From Amazonocrinis nigriterrae CENA67 (GTDB taxonomy: Bacteria > Cyanobacteriota > Cyanobacteriia > Cyanobacteriales > Nostocaceae), in the NCBI RefSeq assembly GCF_016056305.1, contig NZ_JAECZC010000019.1, forward strand, positions 1 to 64,000: a stretch of DNA of 64,000 nt, given 5' to 3'. A program made the translations under genes and the position numbers. Shown one piece after another: positions 17,328 to 45,467 of this stretch. The first letter of the stretch is position 1, and the number at the start of each line of letters is the position of its first letter. The notes beneath the pieces were generated by a model. It made no database searches. It was not told where the DNA came from and saw only the letters and a program-made list of their open reading frames with translations.

Positions 17328-17708
17328 GAAGAATTGGTTAGGGCTAGGTTCGGTCGAACAAATGTTAAATTTGTTCCTAACATCAGGATCTTCTCTGGTC
17401 AAAAGTTTTTTGAAAGTCAAAGCTGTACTCAAATCTCAATTTAAGATCAAAAATGCTTCCAGATGTTGAAATAGTCTTGCCTCTAGCAAACATAGACAAA
17501 GCCCATAATTTAGGTCAAAAAGAGCAAATACGCGTTAAAATTGTGCTGCAAGTCGTCGATTAATGCTGATTTCATCTTTTTGCTTTCACTTTAATCAAAA
17601 AATTAGGTTAAATATACTCATTCGGTTGCGGTATATTTTGCCTCTACAAAACCAGTACTTGCTGACATTCAAAATACGAAAAAAATTGGTATTTCAGCCT
17701 TGAATCTC

Positions 17709-19541: not shown

Positions 19542-19589
19542 TTGCAGTAGAACTATCGTTTTTTAATCATTCCCAGGTCGAGTTATAGG

Positions 19590-19631
19590 AAAGTGCTGAG
19601 TGCTGAATAGAAATCCAGCACTCAGCACTTT
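19590..19631 (+). terminator. Porin terminator-like hairpin
   Basis: AAAGTGCTGAGTGCTG (19590-19605) and CAGCACTCAGCACTTT (19616-19631) are perfect 16-bp reverse complements with a 10-nt loop, 48 bp after the porin stop. The same CAGCACTCAGCACTTT motif recurs near 24797-24812 and, altered, at 36343, so it is also a dispersed repeat. Confidence 0.7.
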
Positions 19632-19815
19632 ACCATATGATTATTTCCAGACTTATACTACCAATTTGAAAAAAGAATACTACAGATAGATTGACTAAAC
19701 TAACATGAGTCTCCGTTGGAGACTCACGTTAAACCAAGACGCACAAAGCGATTTACAACAATCCCGAATCCCAAATCCCAAATCTCAAATAGTATTATTT
19801 TTTGGCACTCCTATG

Positions 19816-19975
19816 AACAGCCTTAACTTCAGTAATAAAATGTAGATCTTTGCTGGTAAAGACAAGTTTAAAATGAAACAATAATAACGATATCAATTTT
19901 ATTCTTGAATGCCAGATACCACAGTAAAACACAGAGGCGAAAATTTAACTTTTTATTTTATTTTCGCCTTTTCTA
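19816..19975 (+). promoter_or_regulatory. Duplicated upstream block of tal-pgi with a covarying hairpin
   Basis: About 160 bp here (starting AACAGCCTTAACTTCAG) is repeated at 38611-38768, ahead of the relic tal-pgi end. Both copies contain a 10-bp stem: AGGCGAAAAT/ATTTTCGCCT here (19935-19944 with 19960-19969), and AGGCGAAAAG/CTTTTCGCCT there. The T-A to G-C change keeps the pairing, suggesting a selected RNA or DNA hairpin (leader, terminator or operator). Confidence 0.6.
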
Positions 19976-20535
19976 TCTGACTCAATTTTGATTCTCTTTT
20001 TTGGTTTTTAAGCTCATCAAATAAAATCCTTGTGTTCACCTAGTTAATACTAATTGGACATCATTAAATATCAAATGCCAAAGAGAGAAACTCACTGATT
20101 ACAAGGCTTTTACTTCCTACCTCTTACTTAACATGAAAACTTGTTAAGGCTTGGATGCCTTTAGAGACTTCCAAGTCAATAACTATTCTATCGCTCTTAG
20201 CAAGCTGGAGTCTTTGCACTCCAAGCAAATGGAATAATTTAACGTCAGTTTGATGAACCTCTTTCCCCCCAACCCCACTATCGTGGGGGCCCCTAAGCCC
20301 CCCAAGCTTCCTCGCCTAAAAGGCGAGGGAAGAGAAACGAAAAAATCACGGTTTTACTCCCCTCTCCTTGTAAGGGAGAGGCCGGGGGAGAAGTCAAAAC
20401 AGCACTTGTCGAACTCACGCTAATTTAATTTTTGGAAGTCCTTTAATGAAATTGCAGAATAAATTTGGCTTCATCCCTGAGAATATCTTCTTCCTAGTCA
20501 AGGCGCAATTAGCAAAAGCTTAAGGAGACCAAATC

Positions 20536-23412: not shown

Positions 23413-23417
23413 GTTGC

Positions 23418-23462
23418 GGGGTATACAGGGATTCTACTTTATCAGTATTTCCCTGTGTACCC
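23418..23462 (+). terminator. Hairpin after tal-pgi
   Basis: GGGTATACAGGGA and TCCCTGTGTACCC (ending 23462) pair over 13 bp with one mismatch, starting a few bases after the stop. The 3' side lacks a good T-tract, so it may attenuate or stabilise rather than end the transcript running to gnd. Confidence 0.55.
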
Positions 23463-23551
23463 TGTCTGAAACTGCTTGGCGTTTAAATCTTTAAATGCAT
23501 TTTAGCTAATGGATTTCACAGCAAGTATTTAATCAACAGAGGAGAAAAATC

Positions 23552-24529
23552 ATGCAAATTGGTGTATTTGGTCTTGGGCGCATGGGTGCTAACATAGTTA
23601 GACGCTTAATGCGCGCTCAACATGAGTGTGTAGTCTTCAACCGCACCCCCGACAAAGTTCGACAGCTAGAAGGCGAAGGTGCCATAGCAGCCGCCTCACT
23701 CGCTCAATTTGTACATCTACTGGCAAAACCAAGAGTAGTTTGGGTGATGTTACCTGCTGGGGATGTAACTGAGCAAGCGATCGCGGCTTTGGCCGAAAAG
23801 CTGGAACCAGGTGATATAGTCATCGATGGTGGCAATTCCTACTATAAAGATGATGTCCGTCGTGCTAAATTAATCAACGCCAAAGGTATCAACTACATTG
23901 ATGTCGGTACCAGTGGTGGGGTATGGGGGTTAGAGCGGGGTTACTGCCTGATGATTGGCGGCAAACCAGAGATTGTCAACTACCTCGATCCCATTTTCAA
24001 ATCTCTTGCTCCCGGAATAGGAGATATTCCCAAGACACCCGGAAGAGAACACCTCAGCAGCACTGCCGAAATGGGCTATTTGCACTGTGGTTCTCATGGA
24101 GCAGGACATTTCGTCAAAATGGTGCATAATGGCGTTGAATATGCGCTAATGCAGGCATATGCCGAAGGGTTTGACATTTTCCGCAGTGCCAACTCTCAGG
24201 AACTGACTGAAGATTATCGTTATGACCTCAATATGGCAGACATTTCTGAAGTCTGGCGGCGGGGTAGTGTAGTGGGGTCTTGGCTGCTAGACTTGACCGC
24301 AATGGCACTGGCAGAGAATCCTACACTTTCTAACTACAGTGGGTATGTGCAGGACTCAGGCGAAGGACGCTGGACAATTATGGCGGCCATTGAAGAAGCC
24401 GTCCCTGCTGATGTACTATCGGCTGCTCTATATACTCGTTTCCGCTCCCGACAAGAGCATACTTTTGCAGAGAAAATTTTGTCTGCCATGCGCTACAAGT
24501 TTGGCGGACATGTTGAGCAACACAGCTAA
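23552..24529 (+). CDS. gnd: Decarboxylating 6-phosphogluconate dehydrogenase, short (NAD-type) form
   Basis: This 325-residue protein is the short GndA/YqeC-like form rather than the ~470-residue common enzyme. Motifs: Rossmann [40 protein letters not shown] and the catalytic [18 protein letters not shown]. It oxidises 6-phosphogluconate to ribulose-5-phosphate plus CO2. Short forms often prefer NAD+, which would give a catabolic rather than NADPH-making role; the cofactor cannot be proven by eye. GAGGAG precedes the ATG at 23552. A MITE-like element (24539-24716) separates it from zwf. Confidence 0.92.
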
Positions 24530-24538
24530 ATACTGATA

Positions 24539-24716
24539 GGGCTTACGCATACTCTACGAATTCTTGGCGCTCTTGGCGTTCTTGGTGAACCAGCGCTGTA
24601 GGCGGGTTTCCCGCCGTAGGCGACTGGTGTTACCAAGAGCGGTAGCGAGAAGCGCGAGCGTCACCCGGAGGGCGGTTCGTTAAATCAAGGTTTTTGGTAA
24701 TTTTTGCGTAAGTCCT
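24539..24716. repeat. MITE-like element C (ACTTACGCA ends), copy 1
   Basis: The ends GGGCTTACGCA and TGCGTAAGTCCT are inverted repeats. The interior holds a nested palindrome, GGCGGG-TTT-CCCGCC, with AACCAGCGC / GCGACTGGT arms. It sits between gnd and zwf. Confidence 0.8.
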
Positions 24717-24818
24717 AACTGATATAGCCGTAGCCACATCAGTGAAAACAGTGCTAATTACTCAAAGCTTTGAAGTAACTGGCTTTTTACTCAGCACTCA
24801 GCACTTTGCTATAAAATT

Positions 24819-26372
24819 ATGACTTTTGCAAAAGCAAATAATCTGAATCAATTGCTAGACCAACCAGCAAATCCCTGTGTGGTAGTGATTTTCGGTGCAG
24901 CTGGAGACTTAACTAAGCGCAAACTGATCCCTGCCCTCTACAACTTGGCACGCAGTAACTTGCTGCCTGAAGAGTTTGCCATAGTAGGGGTTACTCGTGC
25001 CCCCATGAGCAGCGAAGATTTTCGTATCCAAATGAGTCGGGATATCGAAAAATTCTCCACTAACGACGTTGACCCCCAACTGTGGCAGTGGTTTGAGAAG
25101 CGGCTGTATTACCTAGCAGGTGATTTTCAGGACACCGACACCTACAGTCGGCTCAAAGAGTTACTCATGCAGGTTGATCAGGAGCGTGACACCCAAGGCA
25201 ACTATCTTTACTATTTAGCAACTGCACCTCAATTCTTCTGTGACATCATCTGGCAACTAGGCTCTGTTGGACTTGCCCAAGAAGATGGTTACTGGCGGCG
25301 TGTGATTATTGAAAAGCCTTTTGGACAGGATTTAGAATCTGCTCGCGCACTGAACAAAAACATTAGCACAATTCTCAAAGAAAGTCAAATATACCGGATT
25401 GATCACTACCTGGGTAAGGAGACAGTACAGAACATTTTGGTCTTCCGCTTCGGCAACGGACTGTTTGAACCGATTTGGAATCACCATTATATCGATCATG
25501 TACAGATTACAGCTGCTGAGACTGTTGGGGTAGAAGGCAGAGGTGGCTACTATGAAGGAGCGGGGGCAATCCGCGACATGGTTCAAAACCATCTATTCCA
25601 ACTACTGGCGCTGGTGGCAATGGAGCCGCCTGTTTCCTTTGAAGCAGATGCAGTGCGGGATGAAAAGTCAAAAGTACTCAAGGCAATTCAACCCCTGACA
25701 CCCCAGGATGTGCTAACTCATACTGTTCGCGGGCAGTACGGCGAAGGCATAGTCAAGGGACAACATATACCTAATTACCGTTCGGAACCTCGCGTTGCTC
25801 CTGACTCTGGGACGGAAACCTTTACTGCTTTGAAGTTGACGATTGATAACTGGCGTTGGGCGGATGTACCTTTTTACTTACGTACAGGTAAATCTTTAGC
25901 ACAGCGTGTCACTGAAATTACCATCCAATTTAAGCGAGTACCAACCTTGCTTTTTAACAAAACCTCCATTGACCAGCTAGTTCCTAACTTTTTGGTAATT
26001 CGTATCCAGCCCAACGAGGGAATTAGTTTACAATTTGGGGCGAAAGTTCCTGGCCCAACGGTGCGAATGGGGGCGGTGGATATGGATTTTGCTTACACTG
26101 ACTACTTTAATAGTGCGCCCAGTACAGGCTATGAAACCTTACTCTATGACTGCATGATTGGTGATGCGACTCTGTTTCAGAGGGCAGATAATGTGGAATT
26201 GGGTTGGAAAGTCGTCAGTCCGATTCTAGATGTCTGGAAAGCTTTGCCACCACGTAACTTTCCCAACTATGCCGCAGGCACTTGGGGGCCGAAAGAAGCA
26301 GATGAGTTATTGCAGCATGATGGTCGGCAGTGGAGAACAAGTGCCGATTTGAGTGCCCCAGTCAAGGATTGA
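24819..26372 (+). CDS. zwf: Glucose-6-phosphate dehydrogenase
   Basis: This 517-residue G6PDH catalyses the first, NADP-linked step of the oxidative pentose-phosphate pathway. Visible are the coenzyme motif [20 protein letters not shown], the substrate site [20 protein letters not shown] and [13 protein letters not shown]. The length is normal. In most cyanobacteria zwf sits with opcA and fbp; here opcA is absent and the neighbours are gnd and a HAD phosphatase. It may thus be a second, specialised zwf, though that cannot be tested from one window. It starts at ATG 24819 just after a repeat-derived CAGCACTCAGCACTTT motif. Confidence 0.97.
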
Positions 26373-26410
26373 GTGAATGCGATCGCCTAAAAAATAAGAG
26401 TGACAGTATT

Positions 26411-27334
26411 ATGAATCAAACGATTGAGTTCAAACAATCTCAAATTTCTTTGCTCGTTGCCGATGTAGACGGCACTTTGGTTACTCGTGAGAAGATATTG
26501 ACAAATCGCACCCGTACAGCTGTCCAAAAGCTGAATGAGGCTGGTATTATCTTCACCATCACTAGTGGTCGCCCGCCTTTGGGCATGAAGATGATTGTCG
26601 ATGCACTGAATTTAACTGCCCCGATCGCTGGCTTTAATGGTGCAGTGTTCTTTAATTCTGACTTCTCCATTATTGATCAGAATGTACTGACTCAAGCGAT
26701 CGCTCAGCAGGTGGTTGAAATCATCACTGATCACGGTCTCGATGTTTGGATCTATCAAGGCAACGATTGGTTTGTACGTGAACGGCATGGTTCTCATGTT
26801 GACCGCGAAGAAAAGACAGTGCAATTCTCACCAACCGTTGTATCCAACTTTGACGGACTGCTAAACAACGTTGCCAAAATAGTCGGCGTCAGTGATGACA
26901 CAGAAGCAGTAGCACGCTGCGAGGCTGATGTGCAGCAAAAGTTCAGTGGACAAGTCTGCTGTCAGACCGGCACGAGTTCCCGTGATGGTGAGCAAGTCTC
27001 TGCTGCACGTTCCCAGCCCTACTATTTAGATGTCACCCACCCTCGCGCTAACAAAGGAGCGGTGATACAGCGCCTCTCTGAACTCCTGACAATTCCTACT
27101 CACGAGATTGCCACCATTGGGGATATGCCTAACGATGTACCAATGTTTGAACAAAGCGGTCTGAGCATTGCTATGGGCAACGCCAGTGTGCAGGTGCAGC
27201 GCCAGGCCCAGTATGTCACAACTTCCTATGAAGAGGAAGGATTTGCCAATGCAGTGGAACGGTTCATTTTGGGTGGTAACGGCTCAAAGCCAGTACTCGA
27301 TCAAAGCTTAAGGCAATCAGCAGCTACTAGTTAA
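26411..27334 (+). CDS. Cof-type HAD-IIB sugar-phosphatase-like hydrolase
   Basis: This 307-residue HAD hydrolase of the Cof/YidA group has motif I VADVDGTLVT, ITSGRPPLGM for motif II, a large C2 cap domain, and GDMPNDVPMFEQSGLSIAMGNA for motifs III/IV. Relatives dephosphorylate sugar phosphates and related metabolites with relaxed specificity. The frame extends back to 26330, but ATG 26411 (MNQTIEFKQSQ) is preferred because the upstream part overlaps zwf. It follows zwf by 38 bp and is immediately followed by the next ORF, so it is probably co-transcribed. Confidence 0.9.
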   Translation: MNQTIEFKQSQISLLVADVDGTLVTREKILTNRTRTAVQKLNEAGIIFTITSGRPPLGMKMIVDALNLTAPIAGFNGAVFFNSDFSIIDQNVLTQAIAQQVVEIITDHGLDVWIYQGNDWFVRERHGSHVDREEKTVQFSPTVVSNFDGLLNNVAKIVGVSDDTEAVARCEADVQQKFSGQVCCQTGTSSRDGEQVSAARSQPYYLDVTHPRANKGAVIQRLSELLTIPTHEIATIGDMPNDVPMFEQSGLSIAMGNASVQVQRQAQYVTTSYEEEGFANAVERFILGGNGSKPVLDQSLRQSAATS

Positions 27335-27538
27335 ATGCTACTAGTTAAATCCAGACCAACCTTTGAGGGGAAAAATTGTCCTTACTGCTCTGATAGAATG
27401 CTGCAACATATTCGGAATAACCATATTTACTGGTTCTGCCGCAGATGTTGGCAGGAAATGCCGTTGCTAGATGTAAAAACCCATAAATCATTCTCAGCTT
27501 CTCTTGTCAGTAGGTCATTAATTAAAAGAAAAAACTGA
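27335..27538 (+). CDS. Small zinc-ribbon protein
   Basis: This 67-residue protein has two Cys pairs, CPYC (residues 15-18) and CRRC (about 35-38), plus RHIYWFCRRCWQEMP-like spacing, giving a probable zinc ribbon. Its ATG directly abuts the stop codon of the HAD gene (TAA ATG), implying translational coupling and no room for its own ribosome-binding site. Similar small ribbon proteins occur in Nostocales, but I know of no assigned function. Its place in the sugar-phosphate operon suggests a regulatory or assembly role, which is speculation. Confidence 0.65.
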   Translation: MLLVKSRPTFEGKNCPYCSDRMLQHIRNNHIYWFCRRCWQEMPLLDVKTHKSFSASLVSRSLIKRKN

Positions 27539-27561
27539 TTGATTTATTTTGGAGAATTAAA

Positions 27562-28509
27562 ATGACCCAACAAGTTAAAGAAATTCTTAGTTGGTATGGC
27601 AGCGATAATCCAGGAACCCTAACTAACCTGGCACGACTACTCAATCATGGTAAGTTAGCAGGCACTGGTAAACTAGTTATCCTGCCCGTAGATCAAGGGT
27701 TTGAACACGGCCCTGCCCGTAGTTTTGCTGCTAACCCAGTTGCTTACAATCCTCATTATCATTTTGAGTTAGCAATTGAATCAGGCTGCAATGCCTATGC
27801 AGCACCTTTAGGATTCCTAGAAGCAGGTGCAAGAGAGTTCGCGGGTGACATTCCCCTGATTTTGAAAGTTAACGACCATGATGTACTGGTAGATGAAAAA
27901 GATCCCAGCCAAGCCTTGACTGGGAGTGTTCAAGATGCTTTAAGACTGGGTTGCGTGGGAATTGGTTTCACTATCTATCCTGGCTCAACTCATCGATTAG
28001 AGTTGTATGAACAAATTCGCGCTTACGCTGAAGAGGCAAAACGCCAAGGCTTAGTAGTGATTATTTGGTCTTACCCGCGTGGCTTTGGTTTGAGCAAATT
28101 GGGAGAAACTGCAATTGATGTGACGAGCTATGCTGCTCACATTGCTGCCCAACTTGGTGCCCACATTATTAAGGTGAAGCTACCAAGTGCCCATATTGAG
28201 CAAGAGGCAGCTCGTAAGGTCTATGAAAAAGAGCAAATTCCAATTGCCACTCTAGATGAGCGAGTACGGCATGTTGTGCAATGTACGTTTAATGGTCGGC
28301 GGATCGTGATTTTTTCAGGTGGCCCTACTGAAAGTGATGATGTGTTACTTGATGAAATTCGTGCCATCCACAAGGGTGGCGGATTCGGCTCTATCATCGG
28401 GCGCAATTCATTCCAACGTTTTAAACCAGATGCACTACGGCTACTGAATACAATTATGGATATTTACTCTGATGAATTAGCTCCAATTCCCAGCCAATTA
28501 CTCGCCTAG
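27562..28509 (+). CDS. fbaB: Class I fructose-bisphosphate aldolase (FbaB/DhnA type)
   Basis: This is a 315-residue archaeal/bacterial-type class I aldolase. Characteristic stretches are LVILPVDQGFEHGPARSFA, VGIGFTIYPGS, the Schiff-base Lys in AHIIKVKLPSA, and the C-terminal phosphate loop FSGGPTE with GGFGSIIGRNSFQR. It cleaves fructose-1,6-bisphosphate or condenses triose phosphates, and with the Tal domain it can regenerate pentose acceptors. A GGAG precedes the ATG at 27562 by 8 nt. It closes the co-directional run starting at tal-pgi. Confidence 0.93.
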   Translation: MTQQVKEILSWYGSDNPGTLTNLARLLNHGKLAGTGKLVILPVDQGFEHGPARSFAANPVAYNPHYHFELAIESGCNAYAAPLGFLEAGAREFAGDIPLILKVNDHDVLVDEKDPSQALTGSVQDALRLGCVGIGFTIYPGSTHRLELYEQIRAYAEEAKRQGLVVIIWSYPRGFGLSKLGETAIDVTSYAAHIAAQLGAHIIKVKLPSAHIEQEAARKVYEKEQIPIATLDERVRHVVQCTFNGRRIVIFSGGPTESDDVLLDEIRAIHKGGGFGSIIGRNSFQRFKPDALRLLNTIMDIYSDELAPIPSQLLA

Positions 28510-33961: not shown

Positions 33962-33963
33962 TT

Positions 33964-34567: not shown

Positions 34568-35230
34568 ATGAACAGTCAGCTTTCTCTCTCCAACGGGAAA
34601 CAGAATATCAAGCCCGAACTATCTGTTTCAAATAACAGCGTTTTTAGTCAAACTTCAGACCAGACAAGTAATATTTCACAGAGACTACCAGGAACAGCAT
34701 CAGAGATTGTAACGCGCTTATTTGCTAGAGGCGAAGCATTTGACTCGGAAGGATTTATTGAATTTTTTACTGATACACCAGTGTATCAATTTGGCAACTA
34801 TGCACCATGTTTCACTAAAGCTGCTATCAAGCAATCTGTGGATGCCTTTTTCAGTCAAGTTTCTGCCTTGTACCATGAAATTAAGATGACGTGGGAAGTT
34901 GGTGAGGTAGTATTCGTTGAAATGGATGTGATTTACTGGCGCAAGGATGGCTCTGTAGTTACACTTCCTTGCTGCGATATTTTCAGGTTAGAGGGCGACA
35001 AATTCGCAGAATTGCGGATTTTTATGGATGCAAATCCTGTATCTAACCAAACGATTCCTGTTTCCAACACATCTTCCGTATTCACAATCAGCCAAGGACA
35101 TAGAATAACTCCAGTAGGCATCATGAAAAATTACTTCAGCGAACATGATGAAGGGAAACAACGTGTAGCAGCAGGATTTGTCCCCAAATGGTCTGAAGAA
35201 TTGTCTAAATGGTCGCTTATTAAGATATGA
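34568..35230 (+). CDS. NTF2/SnoaL-like protein with conserved C-terminal tail
   Basis: This 220-residue protein has a Ser/Asn-rich N-terminal extension (~45 residues), an NTF2-like domain (RLFARGEAFDSEGFIEFFTD, VYQFGNYAPCF, MTWEVGEVVFVEMDVIYWRK) and a ~50-residue tail with MKNYFSEHDEGKQRV...GFVPKWS. Domain and tail are closely similar to the last ~170 residues of the giant fusion at 42705-45467. The tail is not a standard part of SnoaL domains. The function is probably ligand binding or acid-base catalysis on a small organic metabolite. It is followed 36 bp later by the DUF4432 gene. Confidence 0.82.
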   Translation: MNSQLSLSNGKQNIKPELSVSNNSVFSQTSDQTSNISQRLPGTASEIVTRLFARGEAFDSEGFIEFFTDTPVYQFGNYAPCFTKAAIKQSVDAFFSQVSALYHEIKMTWEVGEVVFVEMDVIYWRKDGSVVTLPCCDIFRLEGDKFAELRIFMDANPVSNQTIPVSNTSSVFTISQGHRITPVGIMKNYFSEHDEGKQRVAAGFVPKWSEELSKWSLIKI

Positions 35231-35266: not shown

Positions 35267-36334
35267 ATGTACACGCACGGAAGAAAAGAGGGTTGTCGCA
35301 TTAGTTTAGATTACACCTACAAGAGTATGCAAATTGCATACCTGGAGAACGAGTTACTGCGGGTCGGAATACTACTGGAAAAAGGTGCAGACATCTTTGA
35401 CTTCACCTACAAGCCTTACAACTTGGATTTCATGTGGCAATCACCGATTCCTATGCGACGCCCCTTTGTTGCAACTAGTGCGCTACCCGAAGGAGCTTTC
35501 CATGATCACTACTACGGTGGTTGGCAGGAGATACTACCATCAGCAGGATGGGCGGCAGAACCCTACATGGGCACTTCTCAAGGTTTGCATGGTGAATTAG
35601 CACTCCTCCCTTTTGAGGCTACTATCTCTGAAGATACCCAAGAACAAGTCACTTTATACACACGTGTACGTCTTTACCGTTCACCGTTAATACTTGAACG
35701 CACGATGTCACTCAAACGTGGTATTGCTGGTTTGTTTATTCATGAACGTCTTGTCAACGAATCAATGGGTGAATTCGCCATCATGTGGGGTCATCATCCT
35801 GCTATTGGAGAGCCATTCCTGGATGATAGTTGCGTGGTTCAGACCCCAGCTTCCAAAGTTGAAGTGATGGCTTACCATAAAAATGGTCTGTGGGAACCAG
35901 GAGGAGATTATGATTTCCCTAAAGTCAAAAACCGACGTACCGGAGTCATACAAGATATTACCTCTATACTCTCTAGGGAAACTCAATCGGTTGATGTCGT
36001 CTTTTTCAAAGAATTAACTGAAGGTTGGTACGGTTTAACTAATCAAAGGAAAGGTGTAGGCTTTGGGATGGTTTGGGACAAAGATCTGTTTAAATATCTT
36101 TGGATGTGGCAGGTCTACGGTGGACATACTGACTATCCTTGGTATGGGCGTACATATAATTGCGCTCTTGAGCCATTCACTAGTTTTCCCCCTTCCGGAA
36201 TCAAGAATGCTGTTAAAAACGGTACAGCGTTGACAATGAAACCAGGCGAAGTCATTGAAACGGAATTAGTTGCTGTTGCTTACCAAGGAGAAGGTGTAAA
36301 ACGTATTACTCCTGATGGAGTTGTGGAGCAATAG
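35267..36334 (+). CDS. DUF4432 family aldose-1-epimerase-like protein
   Basis: This 355-residue protein matches the DUF4432/galactose-mutarotase-like fold: MYTHGRKEGCRISLDYTYK, ENELLRVGILLEKGADIFDFTYKP, WQEILPSAGWAAEPYMG, a carbohydrate-side IMWGHHPAIGEPFL, and a C-terminal beta-sandwich with LEPFTSFP. The HHP segment lies where mutarotases keep catalytic histidines. It likely binds or epimerises a sugar or sugar-like compound. The start at ATG 35267 agrees with the family's usual N-terminus. It is close behind the NTF2-like gene and ahead of an SDR, which fits a sugar-modifying pathway. Confidence 0.82.
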   Translation: MYTHGRKEGCRISLDYTYKSMQIAYLENELLRVGILLEKGADIFDFTYKPYNLDFMWQSPIPMRRPFVATSALPEGAFHDHYYGGWQEILPSAGWAAEPYMGTSQGLHGELALLPFEATISEDTQEQVTLYTRVRLYRSPLILERTMSLKRGIAGLFIHERLVNESMGEFAIMWGHHPAIGEPFLDDSCVVQTPASKVEVMAYHKNGLWEPGGDYDFPKVKNRRTGVIQDITSILSRETQSVDVVFFKELTEGWYGLTNQRKGVGFGMVWDKDLFKYLWMWQVYGGHTDYPWYGRTYNCALEPFTSFPPSGIKNAVKNGTALTMKPGEVIETELVAVAYQGEGVKRITPDGVVEQ

Positions 36335-36591: not shown

Positions 36592-37365
36592 ATGAAGCTA
36601 AAAGACAAAGTTGCCATTGTAACTGGTGGTTCAAAAGGCATTGGCTGGGGAGTTGCTACAGTTTTTGCCCAACAAGGAGCCAAAGTTAGTGTTGTGGCTC
36701 GTGATGCCAAAGCAGGTGAGCAAACAGCTGAAGAAATTCGCGACAAAGGCGGTGAAGCTATTTTCATCCCCTGCGATATTTCCAATGAAGAAGAAGTTAA
36801 AGCAATGGTCGCAACCACCATTGATGCTTTTGGGCAAATAGACATCTTAGTCAATAACGCAGGTGTTGGGGTTTACAAGTCAGTATTGGATACCACAAGC
36901 GAGGAATGGGATCGTTGTTTAGCTATTGACCTCAAAGGTGCATTTCTCTGCTCCAAATATACGATTCCTCATATGCAGGCGATCGGGAAAGGTGTGATTA
37001 TCAATATGTCTTCAGTACACTCTCATGCCACAGTTAACAGTGTCGCACCATATGCAGCTTCTAAAGGTGGGATGACTGCCTTAACCCGTAACATGGCTAT
37101 TGACTATGGCCCGACCATTCGGGTGAATGCAATTGCTCCTGGCTGGGTATGGACACCTCTGATTGAAAATCTCTTCAATAGCTATGACAACCCAGTTCAC
37201 CAACGAGAACTAGTAGAAAAAAGGCAGGTGATGAAGCGCCTTGGTACTCCTGAAGATATTGGTAATGCTGCTGCTTTCCTTGCTAGTGACGAGGCATCTT
37301 TCATTACTGGTACGCAGTTATTTGTAGATGGTGGTCTAACATCTGTGCTTGAAGAATCTTGGTAA
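36592..37365 (+). CDS. Short-chain dehydrogenase/reductase (glucose-dehydrogenase-like)
   Basis: This 257-residue classical SDR has TGGSKGIGWGVATVFAQQGA, VARDAK after the second strand, LVNNAGVGVYKS, catalytic Ser in INMSSVHSH and YAASKGG (Tyr, Lys). The end, GTQLFVDGGLTSV, is typical. Similar sequences are annotated as glucose 1-dehydrogenase or 3-oxoacyl reductase, but specificity cannot be read here. Its position between a mutarotase-like protein and an HbpS-VOC protein favours a small hydroxylated substrate. It starts at ATG 36592 after GAGGCTGAATC. Confidence 0.92.
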   Translation: MKLKDKVAIVTGGSKGIGWGVATVFAQQGAKVSVVARDAKAGEQTAEEIRDKGGEAIFIPCDISNEEEVKAMVATTIDAFGQIDILVNNAGVGVYKSVLDTTSEEWDRCLAIDLKGAFLCSKYTIPHMQAIGKGVIINMSSVHSHATVNSVAPYAASKGGMTALTRNMAIDYGPTIRVNAIAPGWVWTPLIENLFNSYDNPVHQRELVEKRQVMKRLGTPEDIGNAAAFLASDEASFITGTQLFVDGGLTSVLEESW

Positions 37366-37450: not shown

Positions 37451-38293
37451 ATGCTTACACTCAAAGATGCACAAAAAATAGTTGCTTCTGCCGAACAAAA
37501 AGCTATTGAAATTGGTCAGCCAATGAATATAGCAGTAGTAGATCATGGGGGAAACTTAATTACTCATGTGCGTATGGATGAAGCCTGGATTGGCAGTATT
37601 GACATTGCCATTAAGAAAGCTTACACTGCCCGCGCCTTCAATATCTCCACCAAAGAATTAGCAGCACACAGTCAATGTGGAGGAGAGTTTTTTGGGATTC
37701 ATGCATCTAACAATGGCAAGGTGATGATTTTTGCTGGGGGGATTCCTCTCAAACAAAACGGTACAATTGTTGGAGCTATTGGCGTAAGTGGTGGTTCTGG
37801 TAAACAAGACCAAGAAGTTGCTGAAGCTGGGGTTGCAGGTTTGACAAACATTGAAGGAATCTTTCACTGCAACGTTAATTGTACTGATCTTGATCGCTCA
37901 CTCACGTTCTATGAAATGCTTGGCTTCAAGGTGATAACTGACTTCAGCAAAGGAATGAGTAGTGCTGCTATGGCTAAGGCATTTGGATTGCCATATGCAG
38001 AACTTCGAGGAGTCCATTTGACATTAGAAAATGATCCAAAAGCAACTCGAATTGACCTGGTTGAGTTTCTTGACCCCAAAACAGAAGGACAACCTTATCC
38101 TAATTTAAACCATACTGGAGTGGCTCGCATCTGCCTTCGTACCAATGACATTCATCAGGTATACGAAAATTTAAAGGCACGGAGTGTAAATTTCTTGTCT
38201 GAGCCTCAAAAATTGCCTGGAACAGATGCTACTATTGTTTGCTTCACTGATCCAGATGGGAATGTACTCGAACTGCTAGAGGGAGCCATATAA
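37451..38293 (+). CDS. HbpS/GlcG-like domain fused to a VOC (glyoxalase-fold) domain
   Basis: This is a 280-residue two-domain protein. Residues 1-~135 are a GlcG/HbpS (DUF336) domain (LTLKDAQKIVASAEQKAIEIG, AVVDHGGNLITHVRMDEAW, GGIPLKQNGTIVGAIGVSGG). Residues ~138-280 are a vicinal-oxygen-chelate domain (IFHCNVNCTDLDRSLTFYEMLGF, and FTDPDGNVLELLE at the end), with candidate metal ligands His and Glu. HbpS-like proteins bind haem or corrinoid/small ligands and are often found beside diol, glycolate or aromatic catabolic genes. VOC domains catalyse metal-dependent isomerisation or ring cleavage. The combination is unusual to my knowledge. Start ATG 37451. Confidence 0.88.
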   Translation: MLTLKDAQKIVASAEQKAIEIGQPMNIAVVDHGGNLITHVRMDEAWIGSIDIAIKKAYTARAFNISTKELAAHSQCGGEFFGIHASNNGKVMIFAGGIPLKQNGTIVGAIGVSGGSGKQDQEVAEAGVAGLTNIEGIFHCNVNCTDLDRSLTFYEMLGFKVITDFSKGMSSAAMAKAFGLPYAELRGVHLTLENDPKATRIDLVEFLDPKTEGQPYPNLNHTGVARICLRTNDIHQVYENLKARSVNFLSEPQKLPGTDATIVCFTDPDGNVLELLEGAI

Positions 38294-38768: not shown

Positions 38769-38775
38769 ATTCCTC

Positions 38776-39010: not shown

Positions 39011-39607
39011 ATGGCTAATATTGCTCAAACTGTCACTATCACAGACATTAAGGTAGGTCTTGATAAAGCGATTCAATTAGTATTAAACGAGAACAGAGGC
39101 GTTTTAGAAAAAATTAGCTACTTAGCAATTGCAGAACTTGGGCAAGCAATTATGAATGCCCAAAGAATCTTTGTGGCTGGCGAAGGTCGCAGTGGCTTAG
39201 TGATTCGGATGTTTGCCATGCGGTTGATGCATTTAGGTCGTCAGGTCTATGTAGTGGGTGAAACAATTACTCCGGCAATTCAGCAAGGAGATTTACTGAT
39301 TGATTTTTCTGGTTCGGGAAGCACAGAACATGTTTTAGAAATTGCTCACAAAGCGAAAGAATTTGGTGCATATATTGCTAGTGTCACAACCCAAGCAGAC
39401 TCTCCTTTAGCTAAGATTGCAGATTTTCTCATCATAATTGAAGCTGCAGCTAAACAAGACCATAGTCATCAACAGTCACAACAATTTAGTGGTTCTTTAT
39501 TCGAGCAATCATCCTTGCTACTATTTGATGCCTTGTTTCATGTTCTGTCTGAAAATTCCAGCAAAAGTTCTGAAAATCTTTGGTCTTTACACGCCAATCT
39601 TGAGTAA
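39011..39607 (+). CDS. hxlB: 6-phospho-3-hexuloisomerase
   Basis: This 198-residue SIS-fold isomerase is the PHI of the ribulose monophosphate pathway; it converts hexulose-6-phosphate to fructose-6-phosphate. Strong signatures: VAGEGRSGLVIRMFAMRLMHLG, VYVVGETITPAI, GDLLIDFSGSGSTEHVL, and the family's C-terminal SLFEQ ... LWSLHANLE. The length is normal. AGAGGAAAAAG lies upstream of the ATG. hxlA follows 63 bp downstream, the usual pairing, so co-transcription is expected. The deleted tal-pgi copy just upstream would have supplied the next enzyme. Confidence 0.95.
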   Translation: MANIAQTVTITDIKVGLDKAIQLVLNENRGVLEKISYLAIAELGQAIMNAQRIFVAGEGRSGLVIRMFAMRLMHLGRQVYVVGETITPAIQQGDLLIDFSGSGSTEHVLEIAHKAKEFGAYIASVTTQADSPLAKIADFLIIIEAAAKQDHSHQQSQQFSGSLFEQSSLLLFDALFHVLSENSSKSSENLWSLHANLE

Positions 39608-39670: not shown

Positions 39671-40309
39671 ATGAAGTTACAAGTTTCTGTAGATTTGTTG
39701 TCATTAGAACAGGCAATGAACTTACTCCAAGAAGTTTCTCCTTATGTTGATATCATTGAGGCAGGTACCCCTCTAATCAAGCAAGAGGGACTGAAAGTTT
39801 TAACAACCTTCAAACAATATTTTCCCGATAAGCTAATTTTTGCAGATATGAAGACGATGGATGCTGGAGGCTTAGAAGCTGAGATGGCATTCAAAGCAGG
39901 AGCGGACTTTACAACAGTCTTAGCTGTATCGAATGACAGTACGATTGAGGGTGCCGTAACTGCTGCTCGTAAATACGGAAAGTATGTCACTGCTGATTTG
40001 ATTTCTGTTTCAGATCGTGTGTCACGTGCGCGTACATTAGAAAACCTAGGAGTTAATTACCTAGAACTACACTGCGGATTGGACGAACAGGCTAATCATT
40101 TGTGTACTTCTACCGCAGATGAACTCACGGCTCTACGAAATGCAGTCTCAATTTCTCTTTCGGCTGCTGGGGGCATTAATGAGAAAACAATTCAGGAAGT
40201 AGAAGCAGCAGGAGCTGATGTAGCAGCAGTTGGTGCTGCTATCTACAGTGCTAATTCTCCTGCAGAAGCTGCCCGTCGTTTACGGGAAAAGATTAATTCA
40301 CAAGGATAA
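39671..40309 (+). CDS. hxlA: 3-hexulose-6-phosphate synthase
   Basis: This 212-residue orotidine-decarboxylase-fold (OMPDC suprafamily) enzyme condenses formaldehyde with ribulose-5-phosphate. Features: LQVSVDLLSLEQAMNL, DIIEAGTPLIKQEGL, the catalytic cluster FADMKTMDAGG (D-x-K-x-x-D), YLELHCGLDEQA and the phosphate loop SAAGGINEKTI. The related keto-gulonate-phosphate decarboxylase is the main alternative, but the EAGTPLIK segment and the adjacent hxlB favour Hps. The reaction is reversible and can also release formaldehyde while making ribulose-5-phosphate. GAGG lies 9 bp before the ATG. Confidence 0.92.
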   Translation: MKLQVSVDLLSLEQAMNLLQEVSPYVDIIEAGTPLIKQEGLKVLTTFKQYFPDKLIFADMKTMDAGGLEAEMAFKAGADFTTVLAVSNDSTIEGAVTAARKYGKYVTADLISVSDRVSRARTLENLGVNYLELHCGLDEQANHLCTSTADELTALRNAVSISLSAAGGINEKTIQEVEAAGADVAAVGAAIYSANSPAEAARRLREKINSQG

Positions 40310-40400: not shown

Positions 40401-41309
40401 ATGACAAGTTATTTGGCAGATACCAAAACGGCTCTCGAAGCAAAATTTACCCATAAATATGCTTTTGTTAACGGCATACGTCTGCACTACGTAATAGGTG
40501 GGCAAGGCGATGCAATAGTTTTGTTGCATGGTTGGCCACATACTTGGTATCAGTGGCATAAAGTGATGCCAGCCTTGGCAGAACACTATACAGTGATTGC
40601 GGTTGACATCCGTGGTTTTGGTGACTCTTCCAAGCCGGCTGTAGGCTATGATAGCCGCACCGAAGCTGAAGATATTTACCAGTTAGTTCATTCTCTAGGT
40701 TTTGAGCGGGTTTTCTTAGTTGGGTCTGATTGGGGTGCGCCAGTCAACTATGCCTATGCGGCAGCTCATCCAGAAGATGTACGTAGATTTGTTAACCTGG
40801 ATGCAACACTTCCAGGGTTTGGCTGGGAAGACCTAGCGGGATATTCCTCTGAAACCTCACGCCAAGGAGGCGGAATTTGGCATTTTAACTTTAATGCTGT
40901 ACCTGACCTGCCAGAGGCACTGATTGCAGGTAGAGAACGCATATTCATTTCCTATTTTTTCAATAGATATTCTTACAACCCCTCTGGAATCTCTGAGGCT
41001 GAAATAGACGAGTATGTTCGTTGGTATTCTGCACCAGGAGCAGTACGCGCTTCTTTGGGACTTTACCGGGCTATTCACGAGTCGGTGGAACAAAATAAGC
41101 AAAATGCCAAAACAAAACTTCAAATACCTGTTCTAGTTCTTGGTGGCTCTCATGGTTTAGCCGATCGCCCAATTAAGGCGATGCAGGCAGTTGCTGTTGA
41201 TGTTCGCGGTACAGTTATTCAAGGTTGCGGACATTTTATTCCAGAAGAACAGCCAGAGTTCCTAATTGAACAGCTACTCCAATTCTTTGGTGAGGATTAT
41301 AAATCCTAA
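40401..41309 (+). CDS. Alpha/beta hydrolase, epoxide hydrolase/dehalogenase type (copy 2)
   Basis: This 302-residue protein is identical to the one at 33053-33961 (nucleophile Asp110 in GSDWGA, His278 in GCGHF, HGWP oxyanion motif). The coding DNA also looks identical by eye. Only 91 bp separate it from hxlA, against 146 bp after the SDR for copy 1. The shared upstream stretch (TGACACCAGTGTAGAAATGA here) has several substitutions, and copy 1 carries ~40 bp more. It is likely read with hxlBA. Confidence 0.93.
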   Translation: MTSYLADTKTALEAKFTHKYAFVNGIRLHYVIGGQGDAIVLLHGWPHTWYQWHKVMPALAEHYTVIAVDIRGFGDSSKPAVGYDSRTEAEDIYQLVHSLGFERVFLVGSDWGAPVNYAYAAAHPEDVRRFVNLDATLPGFGWEDLAGYSSETSRQGGGIWHFNFNAVPDLPEALIAGRERIFISYFFNRYSYNPSGISEAEIDEYVRWYSAPGAVRASLGLYRAIHESVEQNKQNAKTKLQIPVLVLGGSHGLADRPIKAMQAVAVDVRGTVIQGCGHFIPEEQPEFLIEQLLQFFGEDYKS

Positions 41310-41311
41310 TT

Positions 41312-41613
41312 CTAGTAGTTCACCAAGGTAACTCTGCGTGGTGGTGAGCGCTTGGAGGCTGGGGGGGGAAAGAGAATTGTTATATCAAGTTCGGCTAATT
41401 ACTTATGATATAGTCGGTTTGCCTGGTAATAGGTAATGGGTAATAAGTGATGAGTGATGGGTAATGGGTAATAAGTGATGACTAATAGTAAGATCCAATT
41501 CCCAATTCCCAATTACCCACCTTCGCAGATATCATAATTGTTTAAAGGGACATGATATTAATTGTTACTTCTTCGCTCCCCCTGCTTACCTTCACCTAGC
41601 AATGCAAGGGTTG
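41312..41613. repeat. Repeat A with nested element B (copy 2 of the duplicated segment)
   Basis: This is nearly identical to 33964-34258. The difference is mainly in the number and order of TAATGGG/TAAGTGATGA-type heptamers inside element B (41382-41558). Similarity to the first copy stops at TACAAAGCATT (about 41650). Confidence 0.75.
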
Positions 41614-41769
41614 CTTGAGTACTAGCTCTGTTACCTCTGTACAAAGCATTCATAATTGAGCTTGCAGTCAAGGTTCATAAACTACTTGTGAACAAATACT
41701 GGCAAGTGTTACGTATACTTGCCAGCAGTTTACATTTTGAAAAATCCTAGCAGAGAAAGGAGAAATACA

Positions 41770-42243
41770 TTGGTAATTAAAACTAATCCGGTAGTGTCAC
41801 CAACAGGCGAAGGTCTTGTTTACTCAGTTGTGGGAGACACATACACTTTTAAAGCAGTTAGTGAAGATACTGGCGGAGCTTACTCAACATTTGAGTTTTA
41901 TATTCCATCCGGTCATGGTTCTCCACCTCACATTCATCATCGGGAAGACGAGACATTCTATATCCTAGAGGGGGAGTTATTGTTCCAGGTTGGAGATCAA
42001 AAGATAGTCTTATCGGCGGGTAGCTTTGTTCATGCACCTAAAGGTATTCCTCATTCCTTTACAAATGTTGGTACAACACCAGCAAGAACTTTCACAACAG
42101 CTATTCCTGCTGGGCTGGAAAACTTTTTTGAGGAAGTAGGTTATTTAGTGAAAGACAAAGATACACCCGTACCAATCGCCCTCGAAGACCAAATCAAAAA
42201 AATGCGTGAAGTTGGGCCAAAATATGGTGTTGAAATACTATAG
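41770..42243 (+). CDS. Cupin-domain protein
   Basis: This 157-residue single-domain cupin starts at TTG 41770, chosen because AAAGGAG sits 8 bp upstream and homology begins there; an upstream ATG-like opening at 41719 adds 17 unlikely residues. Cupin motif 1 is GHGSPPHIHHREDETFYILEGE (metal ligands His, His, Glu); motif 2 is HAPKGIPHSFTN (His). The protein resembles quercetinase/dioxygenase-like cupins, so a metal-dependent oxygenase, isomerase or ligand-binding role is possible. It lies between the hydrolase and the giant fusion gene. Confidence 0.87.
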   Translation: MVIKTNPVVSPTGEGLVYSVVGDTYTFKAVSEDTGGAYSTFEFYIPSGHGSPPHIHHREDETFYILEGELLFQVGDQKIVLSAGSFVHAPKGIPHSFTNVGTTPARTFTTAIPAGLENFFEEVGYLVKDKDTPVPIALEDQIKKMREVGPKYGVEIL

Positions 42244-42704
42244 TTCTCGCACTTGATATAACAAATATGGTAACTCCAAGAAATAAATTATCCTGGTTGA
42301 AGTTGTTGACTGATAACTGATAACTGCAAGCAGTGGAATATTTTTTTACTTGGAAGTTTCTATAAGATTAGTATCCCCGATTTTTTGAAGTAAGATGCTA
42401 AGGATTTCCCAAGCCCTGATTTTTTCGTTGGTCATTTTCATGAATTCATAACTAAGTTGTGGAAAAAAGCCACGCTGTTTCGTGGTTTGAGGACTTACTG
42501 TCAAAATTCAGGCAGGCTGCTTCAGCACGCTAAATAAGATTTTTAAGGGATTTCCAGAAAGTAAAAGCAAGAGCCGTCGCTTTCGCCCCTTCGGGGCGAA
42601 AGCGCCTCAGTCCTTGGGTTGAGCCAAAATATATTTGATACGGCTGGGCATTTTATTACTTGTAGGTGTCTAACCAGAGTAGTGTTGAATCAAGGAGATC
42701 TGCT
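42244..42704. other. Gap with a UUCG-capped hairpin and one arm of a 21-bp inverted repeat
   Basis: AATATTTTTTTACTTGGAAGT (42337-42357) is the exact reverse complement of 45734-45754, so the pair flanks the giant gene. CGCTTTCGCCCC (42578-42589) pairs perfectly with GGGGCGAAAGCG (42593-42604), 100 bp before the start codon. Confidence 0.6.
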
Positions 42705-45467
42705 ATGAAAGCAGTAACAAAAAAAGCCAATTATGCAATCCGAGATCAAAATGGCAAACTAGCTTTTTATGTTCTCTTGTGGAAAAGAAAAGGTATTTCT
42801 TTAGAGCTTTTTGACGATTACTGGAGAAATGTGCATGGGCCTCTGTGCGCGCGATTACCAGGTCAGCACCAATACTGGCAATTTCACCTAGATCATAATC
42901 AAGAGGGTAGTTTGTGGCCAAGGGTTCCAGGGATTGATTACACATATCAGACAGAAGATCAATTTGATGGCATTGCAGAATTAACCTTTGAAACCGAAAG
43001 CGATCGCCAAGCCTTTTTTCAATCGTCAGATCCTCTGATGGCTGACGAACACAACCTATTCAGCAAAGCAGTTGGCTATAATACCAACTATGGTAATTCC
43101 CAAACCTTCATTGATGGCATCCCCACAGGGGAACCAAACGGTAAGGTGGATGGGTTGAAATTCCATGTCATGCTGAAAAAAGCTGATGGCGTGGATGTAA
43201 GAGCCTTTCGCGAACATTTGACAGATTACTTTGCTCCTGCGATCGTCCAAAGTAATGCAGTCCTCAAGTTCCGATTGCATTTGTTTGATGAAATAGACAA
43301 TTCCCGCCCAGATGTTGCTGGGGTGTCTCATTGGGAACCACCAGAGAAGCAGTATCAAGCGGCGTTTGAAATTGCCTTTGCCAATCCTCTAGAAATGGAA
43401 GCATTCTTTGCTTCCCCAGAATATGCTGCTGCTTTCAAAAACTTAGCTAAATATGTAAAGCAGATTTTACCATTGCGAGAACGCAGTGCTTACACCTTTG
43501 TACATAACGGCAAATTGACCCTAGCAGGTCAGTGGAGTTCTAATGTTGCAGATTTGATCGTGAAAGTAGGAGCAACTAATCAATTAAATTCAGATACAGT
43601 TTCTCTAATGAACGGTAAAGAAACTGTTAAGCCAGGGTTAGGTCATTATCTGCAAGGAGTGCAACACGTTGGAGTTACAGTTCAAGATATGGAACAATCC
43701 CTCGAGTTTTACACAGAGGTATTAGGAGGGAAGATAGTTGTTGCAGAAAATAATCTCATGGGTGATGGGATACAAAACACTCTCTTTCAAAAAGAGGAGT
43801 TGGATGCATTAACCCAAGGAGTTAACCCCAAAACTTTTGGTATCCCTAATCTTAGAGATGCTAAAGAAGCCTTAGATATTAAATTCATCTCCTTTGGTAA
43901 TACCTGTATTGAACTCATTTATTTTCGAGATGCAGCAACACAAAATCCCCATCATTCAGCTGTTGAGCGCATTCCTTCCCATGTTGGTCATGTGAATGCT
44001 ATGCACATCTCTTTTCATGTAAAAGATGATGTGGATTTAAATTTTTTTGCCAAACTCTTAGAAGAAGAGTGCCAAATACGCGGCATAAAAAATGTTGTTT
44101 TTAATCGCGTAATTAGAGTAAAATCTGAAGAAGAAAGAAGAAAAGTTGCACTAAAATATAATTCTTCTAAATTTTGGGATGAACCAGATTCATTAAATGC
44201 AAATAATCAACCGGAGTCAGAATTTGGTGAATTAGAAGGTTGGGCATTGTTCTACTGTAAAGGGCCAAATGGAGAACAATTAGAATTCAACCAAGCCACT
44301 CGCACAGTTAAAAAACATTTTGTGAAAGCACAGAAGGAATATAGTATGGCAACTAATACACATTTCGCTGTTTTAAATTCTAAATCTTTTCAACAAATAG
44401 AAACATCAGAAAGAGTTTATGCCACACATAGCAGTTCTATCAATGCATCGTTATCAACTGTTTGGAATGTGTTACTAGATACCATTGAAAATCCAGGGCG
44501 CTACAATCCAGAAGCCTACAATTGTAAAATTCTGGAGAGATATCATAATGGCATACTGCGTCAAATTAAAGTTCTCAACATGACAGTTGAGGAAAAAATA
44601 ACTTGGAATGAAAAAACTGGAAAAATCCGACACACCTTAGTGAATAATCCTTTTTTCATTGGTCAAGGAACTAATAAAGTTATCCGCCCTACTAGTAACA
44701 ATCCTCATGAACCTCTAGTAATTAGCTATACCTGGGATTGGGAAGCTTACAATGAAGAGGGCCGAAAAGTTGCTCAAAAAATTCAAGAAAGCATTGCCGA
44801 AGCAGTTAAGCAAATTGTGCTGAATTTAAAAAGTATTTCTGAACAGCAGGAAAATAGAGTACAAAGTACAATTTTTAATGGCAAAATAGGAGCTAATTAC
44901 AAAAAATCTACTGCTGAAAAATTTCCCGGTACGACAACAGACTTGGTTAAGCGCTTATTCTCTAGAGGTGAGGCATTTGATTCGGAAGGATTCATAAACT
45001 TCTTTACTGACACACCAGTTTATCAGTTCGGCAATTTTGATGTGTGTTTAGATAAAGCAGCAATCAAGAAATCTGCGGATGCTTTCTTTAGTGGTATCTC
45101 TGCTGTCTACCATGACATCAAAATGATCTGGGAAGTTGGTGACGTAGTGTTTGTAGAAATGGATGTTACCTACTGGCGTAAAGATGGCTCAGTTGTGACA
45201 CTTCCTTGTTCCGATATCTTCCGCGTAGAAGGTGATAAATTCTCAGAACTGCGGATTTTTATGGATGTGAATCCTGTATTTGATCCTACAATTAACGTTC
45301 CCAATTCAGCCACTGTGTTCACTGTCAGTGAAGGTAAAAAACTGATTCCACCGAACACTATGAAAAATCACTTCGCTGAACATCCTGAAGGTAGACAAAG
45401 AGTACAAACTGGATTTGCTCCTAAATGGTCAACAGCCAACCCACCTAAGTGGTCAATAGGTAGGTAA
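42705..45467 (+). CDS. Giant fusion: EthD-EthD-VOC-SRPBCC(AtaL-like)-NTF2
   Basis: This 920-residue cytoplasmic protein starts at ATG 42705, with AAGGAG 8 bp upstream (the frame opens at GTG 42666). Order: two EthD-like dimeric alpha/beta-barrel halves (~15-300; DDYWRNVHGPLCARLPGQH, VDVRAFREHLTDYFAPAIV), a VOC domain (~317-552; GVQHVGVTVQDMEQSLEFYTEVLGG ... PNGEQLEFNQ), an SRPBCC/DUF1857 AtaL-like ligand-binding domain (~565-720; VWNVLLDTIENPGRYNPEA), and an NTF2-like domain with the KNHFAEHPEGRQRV tail (~755-920). Each domain type acts on or binds small, often aromatic or polyketide-like, molecules. The protein may channel one substrate through several steps; the reaction is unknown. An internal ATG at 44346 marks a likely ancestral gene boundary. 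Confidence 0.88.
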   Translation: MKAVTKKANYAIRDQNGKLAFYVLLWKRKGISLELFDDYWRNVHGPLCARLPGQHQYWQFHLDHNQEGSLWPRVPGIDYTYQTEDQFDGIAELTFETESDRQAFFQSSDPLMADEHNLFSKAVGYNTNYGNSQTFIDGIPTGEPNGKVDGLKFHVMLKKADGVDVRAFREHLTDYFAPAIVQSNAVLKFRLHLFDEIDNSRPDVAGVSHWEPPEKQYQAAFEIAFANPLEMEAFFASPEYAAAFKNLAKYVKQILPLRERSAYTFVHNGKLTLAGQWSSNVADLIVKVGATNQLNSDTVSLMNGKETVKPGLGHYLQGVQHVGVTVQDMEQSLEFYTEVLGGKIVVAENNLMGDGIQNTLFQKEELDALTQGVNPKTFGIPNLRDAKEALDIKFISFGNTCIELIYFRDAATQNPHHSAVERIPSHVGHVNAMHISFHVKDDVDLNFFAKLLEEECQIRGIKNVVFNRVIRVKSEEERRKVALKYNSSKFWDEPDSLNANNQPESEFGELEGWALFYCKGPNGEQLEFNQATRTVKKHFVKAQKEYSMATNTHFAVLNSKSFQQIETSERVYATHSSSINASLSTVWNVLLDTIENPGRYNPEAYNCKILERYHNGILRQIKVLNMTVEEKITWNEKTGKIRHTLVNNPFFIGQGTNKVIRPTSNNPHEPLVISYTWDWEAYNEEGRKVAQKIQESIAEAVKQIVLNLKSISEQQENRVQSTIFNGKIGANYKKSTAEKFPGTTTDLVKRLFSRGEAFDSEGFINFFTDTPVYQFGNFDVCLDKAAIKKSADAFFSGISAVYHDIKMIWEVGDVVFVEMDVTYWRKDGSVVTLPCSDIFRVEGDKFSELRIFMDVNPVFDPTINVPNSATVFTVSEGKKLIPPNTMKNHFAEHPEGRQRVQTGFAPKWSTANPPKWSIGR

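Follow-up and report, generated by a model that had tools for sequence, protein, structure and literature searches.

Modular EthD-EthD-VOC fusion proteins of cyanobacteria, seen from a five-domain member in Amazonocrinis nigriterrae CENA67

An open reading frame (ORF) in the cyanobacterium Amazonocrinis nigriterrae CENA67 raises the question of why two EthD domains, a VOC domain, an SRPBCC domain and a SnoaL/NTF2 domain should be joined in one chain of 920 amino acids. The ORF lies in contig NZ_JAECZC010000019.1, of which we analysed the first 64,000 nucleotides (hereafter, the window). In this report, we found that the product is a real multi-domain protein and almost certainly an enzyme, and that it belongs to a genuine family of modular fusions, which in relatives lie mostly in a sugar-linked locus. 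We propose, with a probability of roughly 0.4, that the fusion tethers enzymes which act one after another on a single labile small molecule, as part of a carbohydrate-linked pathway, the exact chemistry of which we infer.

The chain had been read in an earlier note as EthD-EthD-VOC-SRPBCC-NTF2, and this order is confirmed, with every domain above its Pfam gathering score. EthD (PF07110) reaches 62.6 bits over two stretches (cut-off 22), Glyoxalase/VOC (PF00903) 36.4 bits (cut-off 20.6), AtaL (PF08982) 32.3 bits (cut-off 27) and SnoaL_2 (PF12680) 35.1 bits (cut-off 27); the AtaL score of one relative, L033, is slightly under the cut-off (25.9 versus 27). The domain that the note had called DUF1857 is the SRPBCC/AtaL domain, the family having since been renamed. 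The frame begins with ATG, has AAGGAG 7 bases upstream of it, and stays open for 920 codons without an internal stop; an alternative GTG start is found at 42666, 13 codons 5' of the ATG. The conserved C-terminal tail of about 54 residues also ends a separate SnoaL protein encoded at 34568. Around the gene, sites that resemble promoters or terminators were no more frequent than in shuffled sequence. Coordinates are collected in Table 1.

Could such a chain be an artefact, that is, a frameshift, an assembly join or misassembled adjacent genes? The window belongs to a draft genome of 8.26 Mb in 114 contigs, in which it is part of contig C35, and a 1.25-kb near-identical duplication lies close to the gene. 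However, a single-contig genome of the same genus encodes a chain that is 91% identical from end to end, and further full-length relatives, at loci L037 and L032, are 88% and 86% identical. The ratios of nonsynonymous to synonymous substitution rates (dN/dS) over the full chain are 0.166, 0.214 and 0.237 against these three relatives (genus relative, L037 and L032, respectively), and those of the individual domains lie between 0.02 and 0.32, so that every domain is under purifying selection. Because full-length relatives exist at 91, 88 and 86% identity and dN/dS is 0.17-0.24, a chance ORF, a frameshift and a join are excluded; the frameshift or join against which the earlier note had warned was thus looked for and ruled out, and we regard an artefact of any kind as next to impossible. 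Among named records, those of Nostoc contain the protein's nearest homologues.

The architecture is not unique to this organism. A census covered 104 sequences, one being the window and the others 103 loci; it counted identical proteins once and disregarded ORFs truncated at the end of a locus. It yielded 23 distinct EthD-EthD-VOC fusions, and every one of them comes from a cyanobacterial record or from a genome in the window's own class. An N-terminal CMD domain is present in 18 of the 23 (that of L039 being a partial N-terminal piece), an SRPBCC domain in 13 and a further C-terminal SnoaL domain in 15; the exact domain order of the window's protein recurs in L006 and L037. The census also contained 23 EthD-EthD-SnoaLx proteins, 15 EthD-EthD proteins standing alone and 12 VOC proteins standing alone. 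The parts have been fused and split repeatedly. When 388 genomes were drawn evenly from the class (A. nigriterrae included; fusion judged by the span matched), 28 had any match and 3 an EthD-EthD-VOC fusion, and among 60 relatives, again with our organism included, 10 had a match and 4 a fusion. In the small same-class genomes represented by L069-L071, the parts are unfused yet near one another, though not all of them occur in each.

The protein of the window has lost an N-terminal CMD domain. Two short stretches upstream of its ATG align with the end of the CMD domain that L032 carries in fused form (Table 1), and therefore the window's form is a descendant that lost this domain; the same remnant is kept in L037 and in the genus relative. 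Stand-alone counterparts of its ends persist nearby, as the earlier note had noticed, and they are true homologues: the separate EthD-EthD protein (45837-46739) is 50% identical to fusion residues 6-307, and the separate SnoaL-plus-tail protein (34610-35218) is 62% identical to residues 718-918.

The surroundings of the relatives connect the family with sugars. Within 10 kb of the 23 fusions we found AGE epimerase genes at 16, GlgX at 16, DJ-1 at 17, a separate CMD at 17, SnoaLx at 20, STAS at 13, SpoIIE at 3 and HATPase at 4. These labels, SnoaLx among them, come from single-sequence phmmer searches with hand-set thresholds, and several flanks were shorter than 10 kb; the names are backed by Pfam and NCBIfam for the members scanned, AGE having no NCBIfam match, and the label “CupCHRD”, which takes in any similar cupin, was not used as evidence. 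In L044 the genes run AGE-STAS-GlgX-STAS-SpoIIE-HATPase. As published descriptions give it, this order of epimerase, STAS, GlgX, STAS, phosphatase and kinase repeats that of the Synechocystis icfG region, where slr1855 encodes an epimerase, slr1856 and slr1859 antagonists, slr1857 an isoamylase, slr1860 IcfG and slr1861 a kinase; the region is linked to carbon and glucose control, and the consulted parts of its accounts give no role for slr1852-1855 and name neither the fusion nor EthD genes (PMC8670252, PMC12329169). The CMD protein is slr1853 in Synechocystis, according to the portions consulted of two further papers (PMC3564720, PMC3479031). The window's fusion differs in that it does not adjoin such an operon: no AGE-STAS-GlgX-STAS-SpoIIE-HATPase array stands beside it. 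The gene set is not confined to cyanobacteria, since an Ignavibacteria record (L052) clusters EthD-EthD, CMD, DJ-1, GlgX and AGE-STAS with a GMC oxidoreductase. In L084 (14824-17581), a tryptophan-halogenase-like protein and an O-methyltransferase are encoded between AGE and STAS/GlgX.

We suggest that the fusion arose by the joining of genes that remain apart in many cyanobacteria, within one icfG-type, carbohydrate-linked locus in which CMD, EthD-EthD, VOC and SnoaL genes accompany those for DJ-1, AGE epimerase, STAS proteins and GlgX. The earlier note had proposed successive transformations of one, possibly aromatic, intermediate; the same domains occur as separate, clustered genes in other cyanobacteria, and the fusion therefore fits successive steps in one pathway. 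Each domain would have its own pocket and perform one step on a shared labile small molecule, and tethering would hold the intermediate nearby and supply the parts in equal amounts. The most likely role of the EthD pair would be cofactor-free decarboxylation or oxygenation; the VOC domain, which alone has a clear metal site, would most likely catalyse isomerisation, elimination or cleavage; and the SRPBCC and SnoaL domains would most likely use acid-base catalysis to direct a cyclisation or a dehydration. Sugar breakdown is the probable source of the substrate, perhaps an enolic or dicarbonyl compound, which could be turned into a ring-shaped or phenolic one.

Conserved residues bear on these assignments, most directly in the VOC domain. 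All 35 sequences compared (the 23 fusions and the 12 VOC-alone proteins) have H321, E403, H434 and E527, and we take this H-E-H-E set to be the four-ligand pattern of metal-dependent VOC enzymes. Modelled alone, the domain has a predicted template-modelling score (pTM) of 0.70, and its best Foldseek matches are VOC proteins (E 2.4e-6), although the superposition is loose, with a root-mean-square deviation (rmsd) of 6.7 for the first match. Two rhizobial VOC proteins (L099 and L103), 42-44% identical to this domain, have the same four ligands, and in both loci the VOC gene is followed by one called a putative quinol monooxygenase. The SnoaL domain has the fold of limonene epoxide hydrolases (VIA comparison, Z 15.3, rmsd 1.9-2.1 for the best rows) and a weak profile match to limonene-1,2-epoxide hydrolase (E 6e-5). 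We take the catalytic residues of that enzyme to be Y53, N55, R99, D101 and D132. In our reading of the profile alignment, Y53 corresponds to Y773 (Y in 24 of 25 rows), D101 to D820 (21 D, 4 E) and D132 to D854 (22 D, 3 N), whereas N55 falls on F775 (F in 25 of 25) and R99 has no counterpart. With two of the five positions lacking, limonene epoxide hydrolase activity was rejected for this domain. It has its own invariant polar residues, H803, R825, D827, D837 and E848, in 25 of 25 rows.

These residues also bear on a non-enzymatic role, in which the chain would be a multi-pocket ligand sensor or a scaffold feeding partner-switching regulators. START/NTF2-type folds often bind ligands, and the STAS, SpoIIE and HATPase genes counted above would supply the regulators. 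The invariance of the VOC metal set and of the five SnoaL residues argues against it, as does the finding of no regulatory domain in the two chains scanned with Pfam (those of the window and L033), and we think such a role very improbable.

The folds of the other domains bring in aromatic natural-product tailoring, a possible but distinctly less favoured role in which the fusion would decarboxylate, oxidise and cyclise a phenolic or polyketide-like precursor for subsequent laccase oxidation, in the manner of fungal pigment clusters that combine EthD proteins with laccases. The SRPBCC domain has the fold of the polyketide aromatase/cyclases WhiE-ORFVI, TcmN and ZhuI (VIA, Z 16-17, rmsd 2.3-2.7), from which it differs in sharing only 14-15% identity; the likeness seen here is one of fold. 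The EthD pair resembles an anthrone-oxidase-like protein (VIA, Z 15.4, rmsd 3.8, 219 residues aligned) and, nearly as strongly, the sulfur oxygenase reductases (Z 14.5); this assignment comes solely from VIA rows, the Foldseek matches listed for the full-length model being to SnoaL and SRPBCC proteins, and a search of the Protein Data Bank for sequence relatives of the pair gave none that convinced. With repeats merged, 11 loci have a multicopper oxidase of laccase type at a distance of 0-7 kb from an EthD or VOC gene (L038, L042, L051=L085, L069, L070=L059, L071, L080, L081, L087, L088 and L098), and L041 has a weak match; the scan covered 119 sequences, 87 of which have an EthD or VOC match and many of which overlap. 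Further, a Crinalium AtaL-like protein (38% identical), which of the stand-alone proteins in the plasmid collection is the nearest homologue of the SRPBCC domain, is encoded in a type I polyketide synthase (PKS) cluster, and a distant Caballeronia pair of SRPBCC and NTF2 genes (22%) lies near gentisate and ring-hydroxylating dioxygenases. The portions consulted of two papers describe MdpH and ClaH, both fungal EthD proteins, as decarboxylases and place EthD proteins alongside laccases in pigment clusters (PMC10890192, PMC11942773). The fungal proteins (MdpH and ClaH, and FwA and Mr-EthD of pigment clusters) thus share with some of the cyanobacterial loci an EthD domain and an association with oxidases; they differ in serving polyketide pigment pathways, and the likeness is drawn from published descriptions. 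A FabH-like protein and a ScyA-related thiamine pyrophosphate enzyme are encoded as a pair near CMD, DJ-1, GlgX and AGE genes in this genome (L093 7098-10195, contig C25) and near EthD in Gloeothece (L098 5632-8498); it is possible that the pair represents a natural-product branch.

Other evidence speaks against an aromatic product. Among the 119 sequences, a type I PKS query found no match outside the locus to which it belongs (L101), and the FabH-like pair was found in L093 and L098 alone. The window has no multicopper oxidase match, and the genes most often found nearby encode glucan and sugar enzymes, GlgX and AGE in the relatives and, in the window, DUF4432, short-chain dehydrogenase/reductase (SDR), Zwf, Gnd, Tal-PGI, aldolase and HxlAB proteins. 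Likeness of fold, moreover, shows no function. The aromatic part of the earlier proposal is therefore only partly supported.

A second alternative is the stress-regulated clearing of reactive carbonyls derived from sugars, the domains acting in parallel and not in sequence. It is in keeping with the intact VOC metal set, with DJ-1 genes near relatives, with an HbpS-VOC protein in the window and with an Rsb-like STAS/SpoIIE/HATPase module near some relatives. However, parallel action leaves the fusion of the same domains unexplained, and EthD, SRPBCC and SnoaL are, to our knowledge, not usual carbonyl-detoxifying folds. Expression data from Synechocystis point both ways in the parts of the reports consulted: slr1853 and/or slr1854 are up under ethanol, butanol or hexane (PMC3564720, PMC3726282, PMC3479031), whereas slr1852-1862 are salt-repressed (PMC8670252) and in a producer strain Slr1854 is listed at 0.43-0.54 times the wild-type level (PMC4526308). 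On balance we find this explanation unlikely.

Several observations weigh against the tethering of consecutive steps that we prefer. The full-length model (47 rows) has a mean predicted local distance difference test score (pLDDT) of 71 and a pTM of 0.39, and because of the latter the packing of the domains is not fixed by the model. The SRPBCC domain is missing from 10 of the 23 fusions, and therefore either not every step is essential or the pathway varies. No AGE, GlgX or DJ-1 gene lies within 10 kb of the window's fusion; those of this genome, together with a CMD gene, are on contig C25, away from it. HxlA and HxlB, which are encoded near the gene in the window, are near only 2 of the 23 fusion loci. 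Finally, 31 EthD pairs were chosen for a tree (those of 15 among the 23 VOC fusions, L050, 4 of the 23 EthD-EthD-SnoaLx proteins and 11 standing alone). In it, the fused pairs do not form one clade and need three changes, and the EthD halves of the L041 and L048 fusions pair with the adjacent EthD-EthD-SnoaLx gene (support 100/100 and 100/99); 11 of the 28 inner branches are open. The lack of monophyly therefore implies repeated fusion or gene conversion, and parts that are exchangeable. A single origin of the fusion, which we considered, is unsupported, given the grouping of L041 and L048 with their neighbours.

Sugar genes of another kind lie upstream of the gene in the window. The operon at 17700-28509, with OprB, Tal-PGI, Gnd, Zwf and aldolase genes, recurs near the fusion in two further genomes, G001 and G429, and in G430 it adjoins EthD-EthD. 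With 39011-40309 added, a single cyanobacterial stretch contains the genes of a dissimilatory ribulose monophosphate cycle. Directly 5' of HxlB (38770-38916) is a remnant of a second Tal-PGI C-terminal end (65% identity over 49 residues). HxlA occurs in 3 of 376 class genomes, our organism included (E <= 1e-30). A more elaborate and rather improbable scheme would make use of these genes: an undescribed cyanobacterial pathway from a sugar-derived intermediate to a small, ring-shaped, laccase-oxidisable product, with recapture of formaldehyde and partner switching. Decarboxylation by CMD/EthD would come first, then metal-dependent cleavage by VOC, then cyclisation by SRPBCC/SnoaL; one carbon would be lost as formaldehyde and recaptured by HxlA/HxlB, the linked Zwf-Gnd-Tal-PGI operon would complete the cycle, and icfG-type partner switching would control the pathway in other species. 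The formaldehyde idea is weakened because the HxlA gene of G193 is not beside EthD genes; that of G326 is on a 4-kb contig, too short to tell.

The duplication near the fusion is direct: 33049-34295 and 40397-41650 are 99.1% identical, and each encodes the same 302-residue alpha/beta hydrolase. Either a recent duplication or gene conversion may account for it.

Table 1. Features of the window discussed in the text (positions are those of the 64,000-nucleotide stretch)
Feature	Position	Strand	Basis
Fusion ORF, EthD-EthD-VOC-SRPBCC-SnoaL-tail, 920 residues	42705..45467	+	ORF reading, Pfam, full-length relatives, dN/dS
EthD domain 1, residues 8-140	42726..43124	+	Pfam PF07110; H44 kept in 37/38 rows
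EthD domain 2, residues 145-308	43137..43628	+	second Pfam EthD stretch; H192 invariant, 38/38 rows
VOC domain, residues 309-562	43629..44390	+	Pfam PF00903; invariant ligands; AlphaFold2 model and Foldseek
SRPBCC/AtaL domain, residues 566-722	44400..44870	+	Pfam PF08982; fold like polyketide aromatase/cyclases
SnoaL/NTF2 domain, residues 732-866	44898..45302	+	Pfam PF12680; fold like limonene epoxide hydrolases
Conserved C-terminal tail, residues 867-920	45303..45464	+	14 invariant positions in 15 rows
CMD remnant, piece 1	42512..42546	+	tblastn/blastn against fused CMD of L032: 73% amino-acid, 91% nucleotide identity
CMD remnant, piece 2, CMD C-terminal end, 5' of ATG	42666..42704	+	77% amino-acid identity, L032 residues 116-128
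Separate EthD-EthD protein, 307 residues	45834..46757	+	Pfam; homologous to N-terminal part of fusion
Separate SnoaL-plus-tail protein	34568..35230	+	Pfam; homologous to C-terminal part of fusion
Separate SnoaL protein, 136 residues	30967..31377	-	homology to fusion
Sugar operon: OprB porin, Tal-PGI, Gnd, Zwf, HAD, class I aldolase	17700..28509	+	domain and homology searches
DUF4432 protein, mutarotase-like	35267..36334	+	Pfam
SDR oxidoreductase, glucose-1-dehydrogenase-like	36592..37365	+	NCBIfam PRK07231, 266.8 bits (cut-off 215)
HbpS-like plus VOC protein	37451..38293	+	Pfam
HxlB, 6-phospho-3-hexuloisomerase	39011..39607	+	TIGR03127, 236.9 bits (cut-off 160)
HxlA, 3-hexulose-6-phosphate synthase	39671..40309	+	TIGR03128, 244.2 bits (cut-off 200)
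Alpha/beta hydrolase	40401..41309	+	Pfam; identical protein at 33053-33961
Cupin protein	41719..42243	+	Pfam

The literature searches made found no paper on the EthD-EthD-VOC-SRPBCC-SnoaL architecture or on its locus (for the locus, titles and the beginnings of abstracts were checked). The earlier note's statement that no such enzyme had been described holds to that extent; homologues are already in databases, however, and one is annotated “AtaL-like protein”. This protein (WP_082727432.1), from a plasmid of Nostoc sp. NIES-3756, likewise joins EthD-EthD-SRPBCC-SnoaL-tail in one chain and differs in having no VOC domain. Its gene lies beside those for an aldose 1-epimerase, the counterpart of the window's DUF4432 protein, and a glucose 1-dehydrogenase.

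The family detailed herein is one of repeated swapping of whole domains. Its fusions join homologues of icfG-region genes (CMD and, in a sister protein, SnoaLx) to EthD, VOC and SRPBCC domains, which suggests that these parts serve one metabolic route. A single fusion protein thus offers a handle for finding the substrate, and makes a question of carbon regulation in cyanobacteria testable.

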